Shown here: piece by piece, positions 14,832 through 21,518 of the stretch
Layout of the letters: each line of letters starts with the position of its first letter
How positions within the stretch are numbered: the stretch's first letter is position 1
Origin: an uncultured Opitutia bacterium
GTDB lineage: Bacteria > Verrucomicrobiota > Verrucomicrobiia > Opitutales > Opitutaceae
NCBI GenBank assembly: GCA_903877135.1
Contig: CAIRCN010000020.1
Location: forward strand, 1 to 64,000
DNA length: 64,000 bases
Direction of reading: 5' to 3'
Translations under genes and position numbers: made by a program
Notes under the pieces: generated by a model
The model's database searches: none
The model's input: only the letters and a program-made list of their open reading frames with translations
What the model was told of the DNA's origin: nothing

Positions 14832-15380
14832 TCACCCTGTCTTCAGCAGACCGGTGGCGCGGACGCGGCTGTAGAGGTCGTTCATCGCTTCCTGAGCCGA
14901 GCGGACCAAGCCGTCGGAACTGATCCGGTGCTCACCGTCGGAGGTGACGATCAGGTTGTCGCCAGAGAAATATCCCAGATCCTTATCGCCTTCATTGGTG
15001 CGGAGCGACGCCGTGAACGTGCAATCGGCAAATCCATCCTTGGCCGTCCAGGAGTTCAGCCGGACAAACAGGACCGACGCGCGGCTGGAGGCGGAGTCTT
15101 CGGGGCGCAGCGTGCCGATTTTTCCCTTGAAGCCCTGGGCGCGGAGCGCGCTGGCGACCGCGTCGGCAAACGTCGCGGCCATGTCGTCGCGGACCCAGTT
15201 GGCCTAGGTAACGTTGGGCAGATTCACCGCGATCCACAACCGGCCGGCTTCTTCGTCAATTTTGCACGGTGTGGTGGCCGAGGCGGAATCGGCCTTTGGC
15301 GACGCGGGCATGGATTTGCTGGCGGGACCGGCGAAGGCGATAACCGGCGTGAGAGCGAGGAATAAACTAAGATGACTCAT
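14832..15380 (-). pseudogene. Exported protein of unknown function, split by one in-frame TAG
   Basis: Reading from ATG 15380, the frame encodes a signal peptide (MSHLSLFLALTPVIAFAG) and about 40 further residues. It meets TAG at 15204-15206 (codon 59), then continues in the same frame for 123 codons to TGA near 14832. The second part (SVLFVRLNSWTAKDG..., SSDGLVRSAQEAMNDLYSRV) looks like a compact periplasmic domain. I do not recognise the family. A downstream in-frame ATG (15182) could make a signal-less product, but a broken gene is more likely. The IS1380 transposase fragment abuts its start, so its promoter may also be disrupted. Confidence 0.6.
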
Positions 15381-15781
15381 GCAATTGAGGGCGGGATGAG
15401 TTGGAGAGGGCCGACTCGGGCCGCGAGCGCGGCAACTGCATAGCTGTCGTCGTTGGCGCTCATTTGTCGAAGGAGAACGTGCCACCAATGGCGGCGTTGG
15501 GGCGTGGCGACGGCGAGTTTGAGCGTGGGCTTGCCGGCCGTGTGGCTGAAGACCGCGGCACAGGAAAACAGGCGCCAGCGCAGCGTGGTGAGCTCGGCGC
15601 GCTGGGGCTGGCCGAGCCGACGCTGGAGACCGACGCACAGGTTGTAGGCGCAGATGGCGAGGTGACAGGCCGCTTCGGTCGCCCAGAACGAACGGCAGCA
15701 CAGGCCCTTCAAGCCAAACTGGGTGCCGAGTTCCTTGATCCGATTTTCGATGTCGGCGCGGCCGTGGTAGCGGCGCCACAC
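15377..15781 (-). mobile_element. IS1380-type transposase, C-terminal remnant
   Basis: The 134-codon frame matches the C-terminal DDE region of IS1380-family transposases: WRRYHGRADIENRIKEL carries the final catalytic glutamate, followed by SFWATEAACHLAICAYNL and LTTLRWRLFSCAA. The N-terminal two thirds are missing, so the element is dead. Its stop overlaps the start of the exported-protein pseudogene. DNA from about 15782 to 16186 has no recognisable gene and may be element-related filler. Confidence 0.75.
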
Positions 15782-16302: not shown

Positions 16303-17427
16303 ATGATGACGCGGCGCGAACGGCTCATGGCCACGCTGCACGGCCGGCCCGTCGACCGGCCGGCAGTCAGTTTCTACGAGGTCGGCGGCTTCGAGATCGA
16401 TCCGCGTGATCCGGACCCGTTTAACATCTACAACGATCCCTCGTGGCAGCCGCTGCTGACCCTGACGGAAGAGCAGACTGACCTGATCCGGATGCGCCCG
16501 CCGCTGCTCCGAACCCCGGCCAACCCCTACTTCACGACCGAAATCAGCGACGATGGCGCGTCGCGGCTCACCCGCACGACGGTCCGCGTGAGCAGCCGCA
16601 CACTCACCTCGCTGACACGCCGCGACCGCGAGGTGAACACGATCTGGGTGCTCGAACACTTGCTGAAGGATCTCGACGATCTGAAGGCTTATCTGGAAAT
16701 CCCCGACGAAGTGTTCACCGAGGAAGTGGACGTGTCCAACCTCGTCGCGACGGACCAACAGCTCGGCGACCGCGGCATCGTGATGGTCGACACGCCGGAC
16801 CCGATCTGCCTCGCAGCGGCTCTGTTTTCGATGGAAGATTACCTCGTCGTCGCGTTCTCCGAGCCCGTCTGGTTTCATCGCCTGCTCGAGAAAACGGCGC
16901 GCGTGCTCCACCGCCGCACCGAGATTGTCGCGCGGGAATTTCCCGGCCACCTCTGGCGCATCTACGGGCCGGAATACGCCTCCGAGCCGTTCATGCCGGC
17001 CCGGTTGTTCGAGGAATTTGTGAGCCGTTACACCGGGCCAATGGTCGAGGTGATCCAGCGCCACGGCGGGTTTGTGCGGCTGCATTGCCACGGCCGGATC
17101 AGGAACCTGCTGCCCCACTTTGTCCGCATGGGTGTCACCGCCACCGACCCCATCGAGCCGCCGCCGCACGGCAACATCCCACTCGCCGAAGTGCGCCGCG
17201 ACTACGGCCGCGACCTCGTCCTCTTCGGCAATCTCGAGATCACTGACATCGAGAACCTGCCGCCGGCGCAGTTCGAGCGCGTCGTGGCGCAATCCCTGCA
17301 CGACGGCACGGCGGGCGCGGGCCGGGGCTTCGTGTTGCTGCCGTCCGCGGCACCCTACGGCCGCACGATCACGCCCACGACGCTGGCCAACTACGAAACC
17401 ATGGTGCGGCTAGCGAACCGCGGGTAG
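16303..17427 (+). CDS. Uroporphyrinogen decarboxylase-fold protein (MtaA/UroD superfamily)
   Basis: A 374-residue TIM-barrel protein. The opening TRRERLMATLHGRPVDRPAV is the usual start of UroD-superfamily proteins found outside haem synthesis. GGFVRLHCHGRIRNLLPHFVRMG and the late DLVLFGNLEI strand fit the barrel end. Members include methyltransferases that move methyl groups between cobalamin proteins and coenzymes, but no corrinoid protein is adjacent. It is unlikely to be HemE because the haem-substrate motifs are absent. A second, only distantly similar member lies at 20355. Confidence 0.8.
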   Translation: MMTRRERLMATLHGRPVDRPAVSFYEVGGFEIDPRDPDPFNIYNDPSWQPLLTLTEEQTDLIRMRPPLLRTPANPYFTTEISDDGASRLTRTTVRVSSRTLTSLTRRDREVNTIWVLEHLLKDLDDLKAYLEIPDEVFTEEVDVSNLVATDQQLGDRGIVMVDTPDPICLAAALFSMEDYLVVAFSEPVWFHRLLEKTARVLHRRTEIVAREFPGHLWRIYGPEYASEPFMPARLFEEFVSRYTGPMVEVIQRHGGFVRLHCHGRIRNLLPHFVRMGVTATDPIEPPPHGNIPLAEVRRDYGRDLVLFGNLEITDIENLPPAQFERVVAQSLHDGTAGAGRGFVLLPSAAPYGRTITPTTLANYETMVRLANRG

Positions 17428-17484
17428 GCCGGGTCGGAATCGCGCTTTCCTCGCCACCCACAACCACCTTATCCTGATGTCATC

Positions 17485-18186
17485 ATGAAAATCGCCCTCT
17501 CTGGTATCGCTGGTGTTCCACTGGGAACCCACAAGGTGAAGGATCCGCGCATGGACCAAGCCGACAAATTGGTCGAGGCCGACAAGAAAACCTATGCGCA
17601 CGTCGAGGTGGTCGGTGAAGACGAGGCGTTGACCGCCGACGCCATCGTCGCGTCGCCCGATGGCCGGCTCGAACTGATCCTGAAGGATCTGGAATTCGTG
17701 GAAACGCGGCTGGCGCGCCAGCCCACCGCGGCGGAGCAGATTGTGCTGGAAAAAATCAAGGCGCGCCTCGAGGGCGAGCAGATCATCGCGCAAGCGGGCC
17801 TGACGCCGGAGGAATTGCAGGCCGTGGGTGCGCACGCCTTTATCACGGCCAAGCCGGTGGTGCTGGCCGAGGCCGCTGATGTGGCGAAGTTCGACGAGTT
17901 TTTGCCCCGGGTGTTGAGCGAGAGCGGCTACATCAGTTTCCTGACCGTCGGCGGACCCGAGAATCGCGCCTGGCTGATCCGGAAAGGCACTACTGCCGCG
18001 GAGGCGGGCGGGGCGATTCATACCGACATTCACAAGGGATTCATCCGCGCCGAGATCATCAGCTACTCCGACTTTATCGCCGCCGGCGGTGAAAAACAGG
18101 CGAAGCATGCGCAAAAGCTGCGCATCGAGACCAAGACCTATGTGATGCAGGACTATGACTTGGTGAATTTCCGCTTCAACAAGTAG
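17485..18186 (+). CDS. YchF-like protein lacking the GTPase core (DUF933/TGS only)
   Basis: This 233-residue protein carries the A-domain helices and C-terminal TGS-like domain of YchF. The ELILKDLEFVETRLARQP helix is near 63-80, then TAKPVVLAEAADV near 121-133. The TGS signature runs from SFLTVGGPENRAWLIRKGT (151) to AIHTDIHKGFIRAEIISYSD and ends in VMQDYDLVNFRFN. YchF proteins are usually about 363 residues. The N-terminus here resembles the strand after switch I (VKDPRMDQADKLV), but the P-loop GxxxxGKS and the G3 DxxG region are absent, and the NxxE base-recognition site is lost. It therefore cannot bind nucleotide as YchF does. Confidence 0.85.
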   Translation: MKIALSGIAGVPLGTHKVKDPRMDQADKLVEADKKTYAHVEVVGEDEALTADAIVASPDGRLELILKDLEFVETRLARQPTAAEQIVLEKIKARLEGEQIIAQAGLTPEELQAVGAHAFITAKPVVLAEAADVAKFDEFLPRVLSESGYISFLTVGGPENRAWLIRKGTTAAEAGGAIHTDIHKGFIRAEIISYSDFIAAGGEKQAKHAQKLRIETKTYVMQDYDLVNFRFNK

Positions 18187-18208
18187 CGCCTGGCGAACGC
18201 ACGGTCAC

Positions 18209-18213
18209 CCAAG
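18209..18213. repeat. Left target-site duplication CCAAG
   Basis: CCAAG directly precedes the left terminal inverted repeat and recurs directly after the right one at 20324-20328. A 5-bp duplication is typical of DDE transposition. Confidence 0.8.
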
Positions 18214-18302
18214 TGGTAGCACTCATTAAAGATGAGTCTCGAACAATAAACATGAGTCTCGGATATTAAAGTCGAGTCGTCCTGTTAAATGAGTTGAGTC
18301 TC
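18214..18302. repeat. Left end: terminal inverted repeat plus array of TGAGTCTC motifs
   Basis: The inverted repeat occupies 18214-18238. TGAGTCTC occurs at 18233-18240, 18253-18260 and 18295-18302, with a variant CGAGTCGT at 18273-18280, so spacing is 20, 20 and 22 bases. The first three are preceded by ATTAAA or AATAAA. Regular spacing of about two helical turns suggests transposase binding sites. Confidence 0.8.
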
Positions 18303-18340
18303 ATCCAACTAGCGGTTGTAGAGGTTAATTCTGTTTTCGA

Positions 18341-18365
18341 GGCCCAGCCGTAAGCTGGGCCTTTT
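18341..18365 (+). terminator. Rho-independent terminator inside the element's left end
   Basis: GGCCCAGC (18341-18348), loop CGTAA and GCTGGGCC (18354-18361) form a perfect 8-bp stem followed by TTTT. It reads on the plus strand, so it would stop transcripts entering the element from the upstream YchF-like gene, opposite to the nuclease gene. Confidence 0.75.
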
Positions 18366-18432
18366 CATTTCCTGATCGAGAGTAGGCAGGAGCATGCCTT
18401 GTGCCCGCCCTCGATCCCCTGAACGCCGGAAT

Positions 18433-19359
18433 CTACTGCTTATCCCACTTGGGAAACTGTTGCTTCAGGCGTTCGACGGTGTGCCGCCACTTGGGAGTGG
18501 TCGGTTGGCAGACGGTGTTCTGGTTGCCGAACAGCCCCACCTCGTTGAACGCCTTGTCTTCCGCAACCGTGTCGAGCCATTGCACCCGCACGAAATGCTC
18601 GGCCTTTTCAGGGTCGGCGGCACGTTCGCGCAGTCGATCGGCGGTCTTGAGCACCTCCAGGCAGGGCCTCTCTCCAGTCGGCGTCATCACCTTGAAGTCG
18701 TTGACCGCTTGGACTGGCTCGATGACCCGCCCAACGCCGACGTATCCGGTGCCAGGGATTTTGACCCAGACACGGTCGTCCGGTGACAGCAGCTTGAGGG
18801 TCTGACTATACCAACTGCCTCCGCCTGCGCTGATGTAGCCGTATTTGCGGGCATCCTCCCATGACCGGGATGACTCGCCACCGAAGGAAACATAAAACTC
18901 ACCGTTCCAAGGCTCCTTCTCGCCGGTGCGCTTCGCGGCCGTGGCAACGTTGGCCTGGGTCTCGCCGGGGTCGATCAACCACGCACGACTGAGGAATTGG
19001 TCGGGACCATGTTGGAAGACCTGAAAGAACAGGACGTTGATCGCGATATCGCGGTCATTGAGGTATTGGATGATCCGCTCGGTCGCATCGTCGAGTTCTG
19101 CGGCCACGAGGACGATCTGATGCGACTCGTTCAGGGTCTCCTCGTCCAGCTTGGCGCCGAAACGCTCCTGAAAGGCGACATCCAGGCTGCCGCCACCGGA
19201 ATAGCGCTGGTAGATTTGGGCAATGCGGTCGGCGGTCAGGTTCTCCACCCAAGCTGCGTAGTCGAGGGCTTGGGCTACAATATCACGAGGCGTGCGATGG
19301 CGCTTGCCTTCGCCTCGCAATATCTGACGCCTGAAGACGTAGAATCTAGGGCTCCCCAC
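18433..19359 (-). pseudogene. 5'-truncated PD-(D/E)XK-type nuclease with C-terminal EVE/PUA-like domain
   Basis: The 308-codon frame matches a common family of nuclease-like proteins of about 380-400 residues. Present are GKRHRTPRDIVAQALDYAAW (normally just after the catalytic E-x-K strand; EGK here at 17-19), SHQIVLVAAELDDATERI, INVLFFQVF and a C-terminal module with ISAGGGSWYSQTLKLL and PGTGYVGVGRVIEP. Missing are about 70-80 N-terminal residues with the catalytic aspartate and the proper IELKR strand; the first 15 residues look foreign. The only start is GTG 19359, 15 bases after the helix-turn-helix gene. A deletion joining the two genes would explain this. Probably inactive as a nuclease. 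Confidence 0.7.
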
Positions 19360-19374
19360 GACGGGGCCCGCCGG

Positions 19375-19758
19375 TCAATCCTGATCGCGGCACGTCATGA
19401 GCTTTCTGTCGGTTTCCGCGCAGCGGACGTAGGTAAGCAGCGAGTCTAGGTCGATCAGCCTGACGCCTCTCATGGTGCCGCGGCGACGTAGCGAAATAGT
19501 TCGGATCTTCCCCTCAGTCGCCAACCCGTAGAGAAAACTGCGGCTCAGGCCCGTGTAGGGACAATGCCCTTTGCTGACTGGCATCCGAATGAATTCCGGA
19601 CGCGAGGGGTTTACTGGATCGGTTTCAGCCTTAACTAGGGATCGGGTCAACGACGGCACCTTTTCGGCAAGCAGCCTGATGGCACCCGCCATCTCGAACT
19701 GCGAGGCTGTATGGCGGTCGATGGCATCTGCGATGGATTTCAGTGCATTTGTGTTCAT
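19375..19758 (-). CDS. Excisionase-like helix-turn-helix protein
   Basis: A 127-residue protein with an N-terminal helical part (residues 1-45) and a C-terminal winged-helix segment of the HTH_17/AlpA type: GHCPYTGLSRSFLYGLATEGKIRTISLRRRG (64-94) followed by GVRLIDLDSLLTYV. Proteins of this shape often control excision or expression in mobile elements. It is divergent from the second HTH gene, with a palindrome between them, and is followed after 15 bases by the truncated nuclease gene. Confidence 0.75.
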   Translation of the reverse strand: MNTNALKSIADAIDRHTASQFEMAGAIRLLAEKVPSLTRSLVKAETDPVNPSRPEFIRMPVSKGHCPYTGLSRSFLYGLATEGKIRTISLRRRGTMRGVRLIDLDSLLTYVRCAETDRKLMTCRDQD

Positions 19759-19777
19759 GGTGGGGTTTCAACTAACA

Positions 19778-19792
19778 CAGTCAGATTGACTG
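19778..19792. promoter_or_regulatory. 15-bp palindrome between two divergent HTH genes
   Basis: CAGTCAGATTGACTG is a perfect inverted repeat (6-bp arms, 3-base centre) in the 68-base gap between the starts at 19758 and 19827. It overlaps a possible -35 box TTGACT (19787-19792) for the plus-strand gene. Likely an operator for one of the two HTH proteins; this is inference. Confidence 0.6.
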
Positions 19793-19826
19793 CCAATCTT
19801 CACCGGCTACAGCTCGATTACGACCC

Positions 19827-20207
19827 ATGGGACGAACACTCTCTGACGAAGACATCGATGCCATCGCTTCGCGCGTCGTGCAAATAATCGCGACGCGGCT
19901 GAATGCAGCGGAGCCTCGCCATGAGGCAACGTCACCGGCGCCACCACCCGCGCAACCCCTGAAGCCAAAACTCGCCTACACCCTCAAGGAGCTGAGCGAG
20001 GAGCTGGGTATTTCAAAGGTGACGCTATACCGACTAGAGATCCGCGGCCTCCTCAAGCCACTTCCCTATTTTCGGCACAAGGTTTTTAGCCAAGAAGAGG
20101 TGGCACGATTTTTGGCCGGTCAGGGAGGAGATCCCAGGCGACTTGAAAAAACCAGTGGCCACACATCTACTGTTCGGAGACCGAGACATCTCACGACTCA
20201 ACAATAA
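19827..20207 (+). CDS. MerR/HTH_17-like DNA-binding protein
   Basis: A 126-residue protein. Residues 51-96 (YTLKELSEELGISKVTLYRLEIRGLL...RHKVFSQEEVARFL) form a MerR-like winged helix-turn-helix of the kind seen in excisionases. It is preceded by a helix (LSDEDIDAIASRVVQII) and a proline-rich linker. The basic C-terminal tail has no recognisable domain. Located inside the transposable element, 68 bases from the divergent HTH gene. Together the two could regulate each other or aid mobility; neither has transposase features. Confidence 0.75.
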   Translation: MGRTLSDEDIDAIASRVVQIIATRLNAAEPRHEATSPAPPPAQPLKPKLAYTLKELSEELGISKVTLYRLEIRGLLKPLPYFRHKVFSQEEVARFLAGQGGDPRRLEKTSGHTSTVRRPRHLTTQQ

Positions 20208-20298
20208 TACACCTGAGACTCATCACATTTACACGGTCAGGACTCATCTCATTTGTTGGCAAGCGCTCCGTGTCAGAGGGAGCTTCCCTACCGGTGAG

Positions 20299-20323
20299 GA
20301 CTCAACTTTAATGAGTGCTACCA
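20299..20323. repeat. Right terminal inverted repeat of the element
   Basis: These 25 bases are the reverse complement of 18214-18238 except for one base. CCAAG follows at 20324-20328. Further inward copies of GACTCA start at 20195, 20217 and 20241. Confidence 0.85.
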
Positions 20324-20328
20324 CCAAG
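20324..20328. repeat. Right target-site duplication CCAAG
   Basis: Matches 18209-18213 and directly follows the right inverted repeat. Confidence 0.8.
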
Positions 20329-20354
20329 AGTCATCCCCAGATCGGCGATCAAAC

Positions 20355-21518
20355 ATGCGTTTTGAGCTCAACATTGATTATCCGCCTGAGAAAATGGAGC
20401 GGAGCCGGGCGCGGATGGCGGCGTGGCAGAAGTTCCGGCATGTCGACCGGGTGCCGGTGCAGTATTGCGTGGTGCCGCGGTATTTCGCGCCGCTGTTCAA
20501 GCTGCGCTACCTGGACTTTTTCCACGACGCCGAGACGCATTACCATTGGCTGCTACAATTCGCCAAATACCGGTTCGAAAACATCCCCGAGGATGTCTGC
20601 ACCGCCCCGGCAGTCTGGGTGTGCCCGTATTTCGACAACGTGATCCCGCCGAGCGGCCACGGCGGCGAAATCAGTTGGTCGGCCGACGAGACGCCACGGG
20701 CGATTCCCGTCATCCACACCATCGAAGAGATGGAGCGTTTTGAAGTCGCCGCGCCCGACACCGGGCTGCGCGGCACGGCCATCAAATGGTGGGCCATAAT
20801 GAAGGAGCTCGCCACACAAACCAAGGTGACGTTCAACGGCCAACCGGGCCGCGTGGACACCGGGCTAAACGTCGGGGGCCTAAGCCCGCACATGATCGCG
20901 GTGGATTTGGTGGGCGAGGATTTTTACTGGTGGATTCTGGAATATCCGGAGGAGTGCCACCGCTTCCTGCAGAAGATCACGCAGGGCGAAATCGCGGCCG
21001 AGGAGCACGCACGGCGGCTGCAGGGCCTGCCGCTCACCGGCGATTCCCACGCGCTGGCGGAGGACTCGGCGCAGATCATGTCGGCCGCGCAGTTCAAGGA
21101 ATTCTGCGTGCCCTACAGCCGGGCGATCTTCGAGCGGTTTGGCCAAAATGAGCGCGGCGTGCACATGTGCGGCAACAGCACCCACCTCCATCAGGTGCTC
21201 AAGGACGATTTGAAGATGACCATGTTCGCCTACTTCGGCTACATGGTCCCGCCGAAGGTCGCCGCGGCGAATCTGGGCGGCATTTCTCGCCTGATGGGAA
21301 ACCTCAGTCCGATGCTCATGAAGGACTGCAGCTATCAGCAGGTCAAACAGGCGGCGCACGAGTGCATCGAGGCGATGGGCCCCTGCGGCGGCCTGCTGCT
21401 GGCCGACGGCGCCAACGTCTGCCCCGGCACGCCCATCGAAAGCTTTCGCGCCATCATGGATGCAGCCGAAGAATATGGCCTGGGCGAGGGCAAGCTGCCG
21501 CGGGAAAACTCACCTTAA
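20355..21518 (+). CDS. Uroporphyrinogen decarboxylase-fold methyltransferase-like protein
   Basis: A 387-residue TIM-barrel protein. ERSRARMAAWQKFRHVDRVPV is the UroD-superfamily start. The HMCGNSTHL segment (about 274-282) gives an H-x-C pair like the zinc ligands of cobamide methyltransferases (MtaA/MtbA group), and the end GGLLLADGANVCPGTPIESF supplies another cysteine. It may therefore be a zinc-dependent methyltransferase; substrate unknown. The transposable element ends only 27 bases before its first flank base at 20350, so its native promoter has probably been displaced from the upstream gene. Confidence 0.8.
   Translation: MRFELNIDYPPEKMERSRARMAAWQKFRHVDRVPVQYCVVPRYFAPLFKLRYLDFFHDAETHYHWLLQFAKYRFENIPEDVCTAPAVWVCPYFDNVIPPSGHGGEISWSADETPRAIPVIHTIEEMERFEVAAPDTGLRGTAIKWWAIMKELATQTKVTFNGQPGRVDTGLNVGGLSPHMIAVDLVGEDFYWWILEYPEECHRFLQKITQGEIAAEEHARRLQGLPLTGDSHALAEDSAQIMSAAQFKEFCVPYSRAIFERFGQNERGVHMCGNSTHLHQVLKDDLKMTMFAYFGYMVPPKVAAANLGGISRLMGNLSPMLMKDCSYQQVKQAAHECIEAMGPCGGLLLADGANVCPGTPIESFRAIMDAAEEYGLGEGKLPRENSP

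Follow-up and report, generated by a model that had tools for sequence, protein, structure and literature searches.

Anatomy of the element and its insertion site

The DNA analysed here is a 64-kb stretch (hereafter the window) of contig C20 from the genome of an uncultured Opitutia bacterium (4.2 Mb in 87 contigs, 97% complete), referred to below as the host genome. At positions 18214-20323 the window contains an element of 2,110 bp whose first bases are TG and whose last bases are CA, with the pentanucleotide CCAAG directly outside both termini (18209-18213 and 20324-20328). Together with these duplications, it lies in the interval that separates a short YchF-like gene from a co-directional URO-D gene, starting 27 bp past the stop codon of the former and finishing 31 bp ahead of the start of the latter. 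Its features are as follows:

18209..18213, no strand: left 5-bp duplication, CCAAG
18214..18238, plus strand: left terminal inverted repeat, 24/25 complementary
18220..18306, plus strand: left array of four inward repeats, cores at 18233, 18253, 18273 (CGAGTC) and 18295
18339..18363, plus strand: terminator-like hairpin, inward-facing, just inside the tandem-repeat end (hairpin count not above shuffles)
18433..19359, minus strand: relative of the PDC-S11 defence-candidate nuclease without its N-terminal part (PADLOC)
19375..19758, minus strand: hth2, weak HTH_17/excisionase-like ORF (Pfam)
19827..20207, plus strand: hth3, HTH_17 protein; last gene before the right end, outward (Pfam, PHROGs, PADLOC)
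20189..20317, minus strand: right array of four inward repeats, cores at 20299, 20241, 20217 and 20195
20299..20323, minus strand: right terminal inverted repeat, 24/25 complementary
20324..20328, no strand: right 5-bp duplication, CCAAG

The initial annotation had described 25-bp inverted repeats, alike at 24 of 25 positions and bordered on both sides by CCAAG, and recounting and resampling confirmed this description. The terminal pairing also scores as 26 nt at 96%, with the outer G and C of the duplications pairing too. When the whole window was searched for TG...CA pairs separated by 500-15,000 bp and flanked by the same 5 bp, scored over 26 positions, the terminal pair of the element reached 24/26 and the next-best pair 18/26; in 60 first-order Markov resamples of the window, the best pair scored at most 19/26. 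The terminal structure is thus far above chance.

Both ends also carry arrays of repeats, which confirms that an end motif is repeated. Eight repeats of approximately 20 bp, four per end and all pointing inward, share the core TGAGTC (CGAGTC once). The cores are spaced by 20, 20 and 22 bp on the left and by 58, 24 and 22 bp on the right, where the 58-bp step directly follows the terminal repeat. Counting both strands, the window contains 16 TGAGTC words, seven of them within the two ends of the element. The looser word ATGAGTCTCR with two mismatches was not enriched window-wide (62 found vs. 73 expected), so that the clustering of the repeats alone counts as evidence. With two such arrays, and a terminal pair that no resample approached, it is extremely improbable that the region is not mobile and that chance inverted repeats merely surround resident genes, even though neither another copy nor an empty site was found.

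With regard to the surroundings, the element lies inside a co-directional group (window 16303-21518) in which two URO-D family genes flank the YchF-like gene; the latter encodes 233 aa, of which Pfam matches the C-terminal domain only. A transposase fragment matching the last quarter of the Pfam profile DDE_Tnp_1_4 (E 1e-14) is located on the minus strand at 15377-15781, 2.4 kb upstream of the element.

A 4-kb query of the region matched in 8 of 36 genomes, the host genome included. The matches in G001 and G018 extended over 34-36 bp only, those in G011 and G002 fell in the nuclease gene (with an additional 41-bp piece in G002), and G010, G017 and G004 carry the YchF-like gene, with no URO-D gene in their examined stretches. 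Empty sites with a single CCAAG, proposed as a check on the initial annotation, were not found in these 36 genomes, and in none of them other than the host genome was the 2.1 kb in place.

Cargo genes and absence of a recognised transposase

The nuclease ORF matched PADLOC PDC-S11 with an E value of 2e-126 over profile positions 73-355; the first 72 positions are absent and 16 unrelated residues stand in their place. A relative in G011, of 358 aa and 71% identical over 290 residues, covers PDC-S11 positions 1-356, bearing out the earlier view of the gene as truncated, with its 5' part gone. The N-terminal part present in the G011 protein and missing from the window nuclease includes IDLLAIAPDASLVLIELK, which we take to resemble a PD-(D/E)XK core, and because this part is lost the cargo nuclease is probably dead. 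The G011 relative matched nothing among solved structures. In the plasmid collection, it has 50 relatives, all below 60% identity and some annotated as NucS or DUF91.

The two remaining main ORFs had both been described as helix-turn-helix genes. This held for hth3, which matched Pfam HTH_17 above the cut-off (E 6e-7), and weakly for hth2, whose match to the same family stayed below it (E 0.06). Profiles close to the hth3 product also include PADLOC mad1 (E 8e-7) and PHROG 66 (E 3e-10), the latter annotated 'excisionase and transcriptional regulator'. Solved structures gave no match to this protein, and the 3' end of its gene overlaps the innermost right repeat.

In line with the earlier statement that no transposase lies inside the element, neither a transposase nor a recombinase was matched in the three main ORFs by Pfam, NCBIfam, PHROGs or PADLOC, and no tnsB/tniA, tnsC/tniB or tniQ was present among the ORFs between the ends. 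For this reason, the element is classed not as an autonomous member of the Tn7/Tn5053 superfamily, only as working like one.

Further copies, candidate helpers and a second element

Within the host genome, a search for the end with up to three mismatches in 25 positions returned only the element's own two ends, and BLAST of the left end gave nothing additional better than E 0.9. A 17-mer of the end with one mismatch matched two of 57 genomes (the host and relatives), one being the host and the other a chance match. An end pattern matched 3 of 384 class genomes: the host and two chance matches. Candidates rejected in these searches comprised G588 (a chance match, no repeats), G584 (inside a 536-aa ORF), G030 (no repeats) and L040 (a chance match at the start codon of an AbrB-like ORF, judged by eye). 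A 15-base end pattern retrieved at least 119 stretches across genome contigs and was too short to discriminate; two or more TGAGTC within 150 bp were present, among 124 loci examined, only at those of the host genome. In viral contigs, a 16-base end pattern gave 12 matches, none followed by repeats, and a longer pattern one match, inside a 907-aa ORF. The plasmid collection yielded nothing convincing for the ends, with four E. coli records at E = 4. Further copies bearing these ends with other cargo, which the initial annotation had proposed to look for, were thus not found in the genomes searched.

Nor did the host genome reveal a helper. TniQ occurs in 16 of 180 family genomes and is absent from this one. 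The host genome has two IS21 loci and further rve genes on contig C21, and an rve-based search of it would miss a TnsB that diverges from Pfam rve as strongly as does the one encoded by the G741 element described below. The matrix of the window repeats, run over the TniQ regions of relatives, scored at best 24.5, compared with 27.9 on reversed sequence. No autonomous element with the window ends was found in the host genome, the set of 57, the 384 class genomes or the TniQ regions. The suggestion of a partner elsewhere in the same genome is not supported, though not disproved: only the element's own two ends were found, TniQ was not detected, and the one whole IS21 copy has ends unlike those of the window element and no repeat array.

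A search with the hth3 protein matched 7 of 387 phylum genomes, the host genome included. In G398, the homologue (52% identical) is part of a second element of 4.1 kb (L155:5512-9624) with TG...CA termini, inverted ends identical at 26/26 positions and TAAAC on both sides; terminal pairs in 40 resamples peaked at 17/26. This element carries four tandem repeats at one end, spaced by 20, 23 and 23 bp, while the terminal repeat is the only clear one at the end next to hth3. Its hth3 homologue is the outermost gene, faces outward and lies at the end opposite the tandem repeats, 172 bp from the terminus (116 bp in the window element). No recognised transposase was detected in it; two larger cargo ORFs lacked Pfam or PADLOC matches and a 157-aa ORF matched LmuB weakly (E 3e-4). 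In both elements, an inward terminator-like hairpin is located just inside the tandem-repeat end; hairpin numbers were not above shuffles in either, and only the common place and direction are of note. The G398 element reproduces the whole plan of the window element, with hth3 at the same place, and differs from it in end sequence, cargo and length.

A solitary remnant was observed in G805 (L262:667-885, C207), consisting of the hth3-side end of the G398 type and a 3' tail of hth3; it is 85% identical to G398 over 215 bp, and both genomes belong to the same genus. Within that genus, the G398 repeat matched 3 of 21 genomes, namely G398, the G805 remnant and G318, the last being rejected, its one match having neither repeats nor bounded ends. 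Two matches of the G398 repeat in viral contigs were also discarded, as they shared one context without repeats that looked coding by eye.

A wider profile search detected 34 hth3-like loci in 30 of 372 order genomes. When these were examined with 4-20 kb of surroundings, a span in which longer elements would be missed, only the window and G398 loci had duplication-bounded TG...CA ends clearly above chance. Pairs in G034 (L319; 20/26, both ends in long ORFs) and G180 (L323; 16/20) were judged to be probably due to chance. Overall, hth3 relatives are not bound to such elements, and hth3 does not serve as a general marker of them. Relatives of hth3 were absent from plasmids, phages and, by profile, viral contigs, in which two loci matched residues 1-34 only. 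Relatives of hth2 were present in 26 of 387 phylum genomes and absent from plasmids, and seven hth2 loci showed no bounded pair above 14/20.

These observations bear on whether the window element is a dead relic, i.e., a complete Tn7-like element that lost its transposition genes in place and never moved in its present form. The single copy in the genome, the cargo gene without its 5' part and the failure to find a helper all fit such a history. However, both ends and the duplication are intact, the ends still being alike at 24 of 25 positions, and the existence in G398 of an element of the same plan, shorter than an autonomous one, favours a transmitted form. We consider the relic unlikely, yet it ranks first among the remaining alternatives, ahead of an IS21 passenger and, lastly, of another DDE family. 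The absence of any other copy and of any empty site, which the initial annotation had named as grounds against its proposal, was largely what we encountered in the genomes searched, and the same 2.1 kb as fixed ancestral sequence in related genomes, also named there, was not. Given the G398 element of the same design, and the 2.1 kb not being in place in the other genomes searched with the 4-kb region, these negative results are not decisive.

Relationship to known transposons and proposed mechanism

A complete Tn7-like element of 15.7 kb was identified in G741 (C41:25249-40954; L327, L243, L328), with ATGGA on both sides and ends matching at 24/26 positions, compared with a peak of 18 in 40 resamples. 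It bears four tandem repeats at the left (19, 19, 25) and, at the right, the terminal repeat followed by steps of 68 and 36. Its TnsB matches Tn7 TnsB (7pik, E 1.2e-29), and it also encodes two TniQ, a TniB-like ATPase and, as cargo, a PDC-S39 defence candidate; TnsA was assigned by eye, with no Pfam match. The window element resembles it in the TG...CA termini, the inverted ends of approximately 25 bp, the 5-bp duplication, the defence-type cargo and the combination of four tandem repeats at one end with a gapped array at the other. It differs in lacking tnsABC and tniQ, in its length (2.1 kb vs. 15.7 kb) and in the sequence of the repeats.

A Tn5053-like element in G023 (L232:7391-11305, C87) shares the TG...CA termini and repeats of approximately 20 bp at both ends (Tn5053/Tn402 type). 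In contrast to the window element, it has three repeats per end and retains tniA and tniQ, and no 5-bp duplication was found for it. On the left, its outer end reaches into the beginning of an ORF for a tyrosine recombinase. Such arrays thus accompany TnsB/TniA elements in this bacterial family in two examples, G741 and G023. In G004, a TniQ-TnsB-TnsC-TniQ group (C1:645842-653800; L157, L190) was also observed, whose TnsB matches PDB 9bw1 'Integrase' (E 1e-113) and CAST TnsB chains, and which is adjoined by a partial hth3 homologue (57 residues matched). Ends were found neither for this group nor for the other TniQ regions of family genomes examined.

According to the available passages of PMC8649781, Tn7, Tn5090, Tn5053 and Tn552 have in common that each end carries an array of ~20-bp repeats. 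The window element combines such arrays with TG...CA termini and a 5-bp duplication, as expected of the Tn7/Tn5053 superfamily; end sequence in common with a known tnsB element was not found in the TniQ regions examined. When the ends of the window, G741 and G398 elements were compared with one another, 10 of 12 comparisons were no better than shuffles, so that the assignment to a class rests on the anatomy and the link through hth3. The two comparisons that stood out were the G741 right end with the window right end (0 of 300 shuffles as good) and the G398 array with the window left end (1 of 300), and we do not claim homology of the ends among the three elements from these similarities.

The evidence gives good support to the earlier description of the locus as a transposable element that is non-autonomous, has TG...CA termini and is flanked by a 5-bp duplication. 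We assign a probability of roughly 60% to its being a member of the Tn7/Tn5053 superfamily for which the transposase is supplied in trans. Transposase-free forms with intact ends have a precedent in tni-deleted Tn402 derivatives, e.g., class 1 integrons, which are thought to be moved in trans. The window element resembles these in form, and differs in its ends, its cargo and the absence of an integron. Mobilisation in trans and origin by deletion, between which the initial annotation had left the choice, are both inferred steps.

That annotation had also left open whether the element is Tn7-like or IS21-like, and the anatomy of the ends favours the former. In an IS21-based scenario, a non-autonomous passenger would be moved by IstA/IstB. 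IS21 elements, too, have TG...CA ends, a short duplication and end motifs in repeat, and the host genome contains two IS21 loci, one whole on contig C15 and one interrupted by the start of contig C21; IstB matches are located on C15, C21 and C58, none of them inside the element. Nevertheless, IS21 ends have two repeats each in the available text of PMC10122671, compared with four in the window element, which furthermore lacks istA and istB. The ends of the C15 copy, the one whole IS21 compared, share a single 10-mer with each other, have no repeat array and are unlike those of the window element, and neither C15 nor the initial 12 kb of C21 showed a TGAGTC array. The C15 contig (L133, 3,360 bp) apparently consists of a single IS21 copy and nothing else, with istA preceded by two additional ORFs. 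An IS21 passenger appears improbable in light of these differences. Even less likely would be an undescribed DDE family with its own type of array ends: the lack of a convincing plasmid-collection match and of a partner would suit it, whereas known Tn7-superfamily ends already have the anatomy seen here.

Under the preferred superfamily assignment, the repeat arrays would be the predicted binding sites for a TnsB/TniA-type DDE transposase provided by another element. Joining of the CA-3' ends by this enzyme to target strands cut 5 bp apart, followed by repair, would have generated CCAAG twice and left the element in the narrow space separating two co-directional host genes. The defence-type cargo would have been carried along and decayed later. 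The helix-turn-helix gene adjoins the gapped end and recurs at the same place in the G398 element; any part taken by its product would be hypothetical.

A further, more tentative idea, which we regard as rather doubtful, is that the two elements belong to a Tn7-superfamily lineage maintained in transposase-free form, whose end sequences would have diverged to follow different helpers and whose helix-turn-helix protein would aid mobilisation. The common plan would then consist of a tandem-repeat end, an inward terminator, variable defence-type cargo and the helix-turn-helix gene outermost at the opposite end. Its protein might, for instance, serve in regulation or as a directionality factor, acting on the end at which its own gene runs into the innermost repeat.

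Transposase-free derivatives of the Tn7/Tn5053 superfamily are already known in principle. The present case adds two independent elements with a common plan and the same helix-turn-helix gene, and we know of no name for the G398 element. Among titles and abstract openings of published work, a scope in which subscription papers are largely not included, no report of this design was found, and the words non-autonomous, orphan and helix-turn-helix did not occur in the available passages of PMC10293859. As far as the available passages of PMC8649781 indicate, the large survey of Tn7-like elements starts from tnsB, and elements without tnsB would therefore be invisible to such a survey. The common helix-turn-helix gene offers a handle for finding more of them, even if most relatives of hth3 lie outside such elements. 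Together, the window and G398 elements hint that a small lineage of hitch-hiking elements has gone unrecorded. If elements of this kind were common, each would represent a compact natural end pair naming the binding site of a transposase, and they would amount to a hidden traffic of defence genes.
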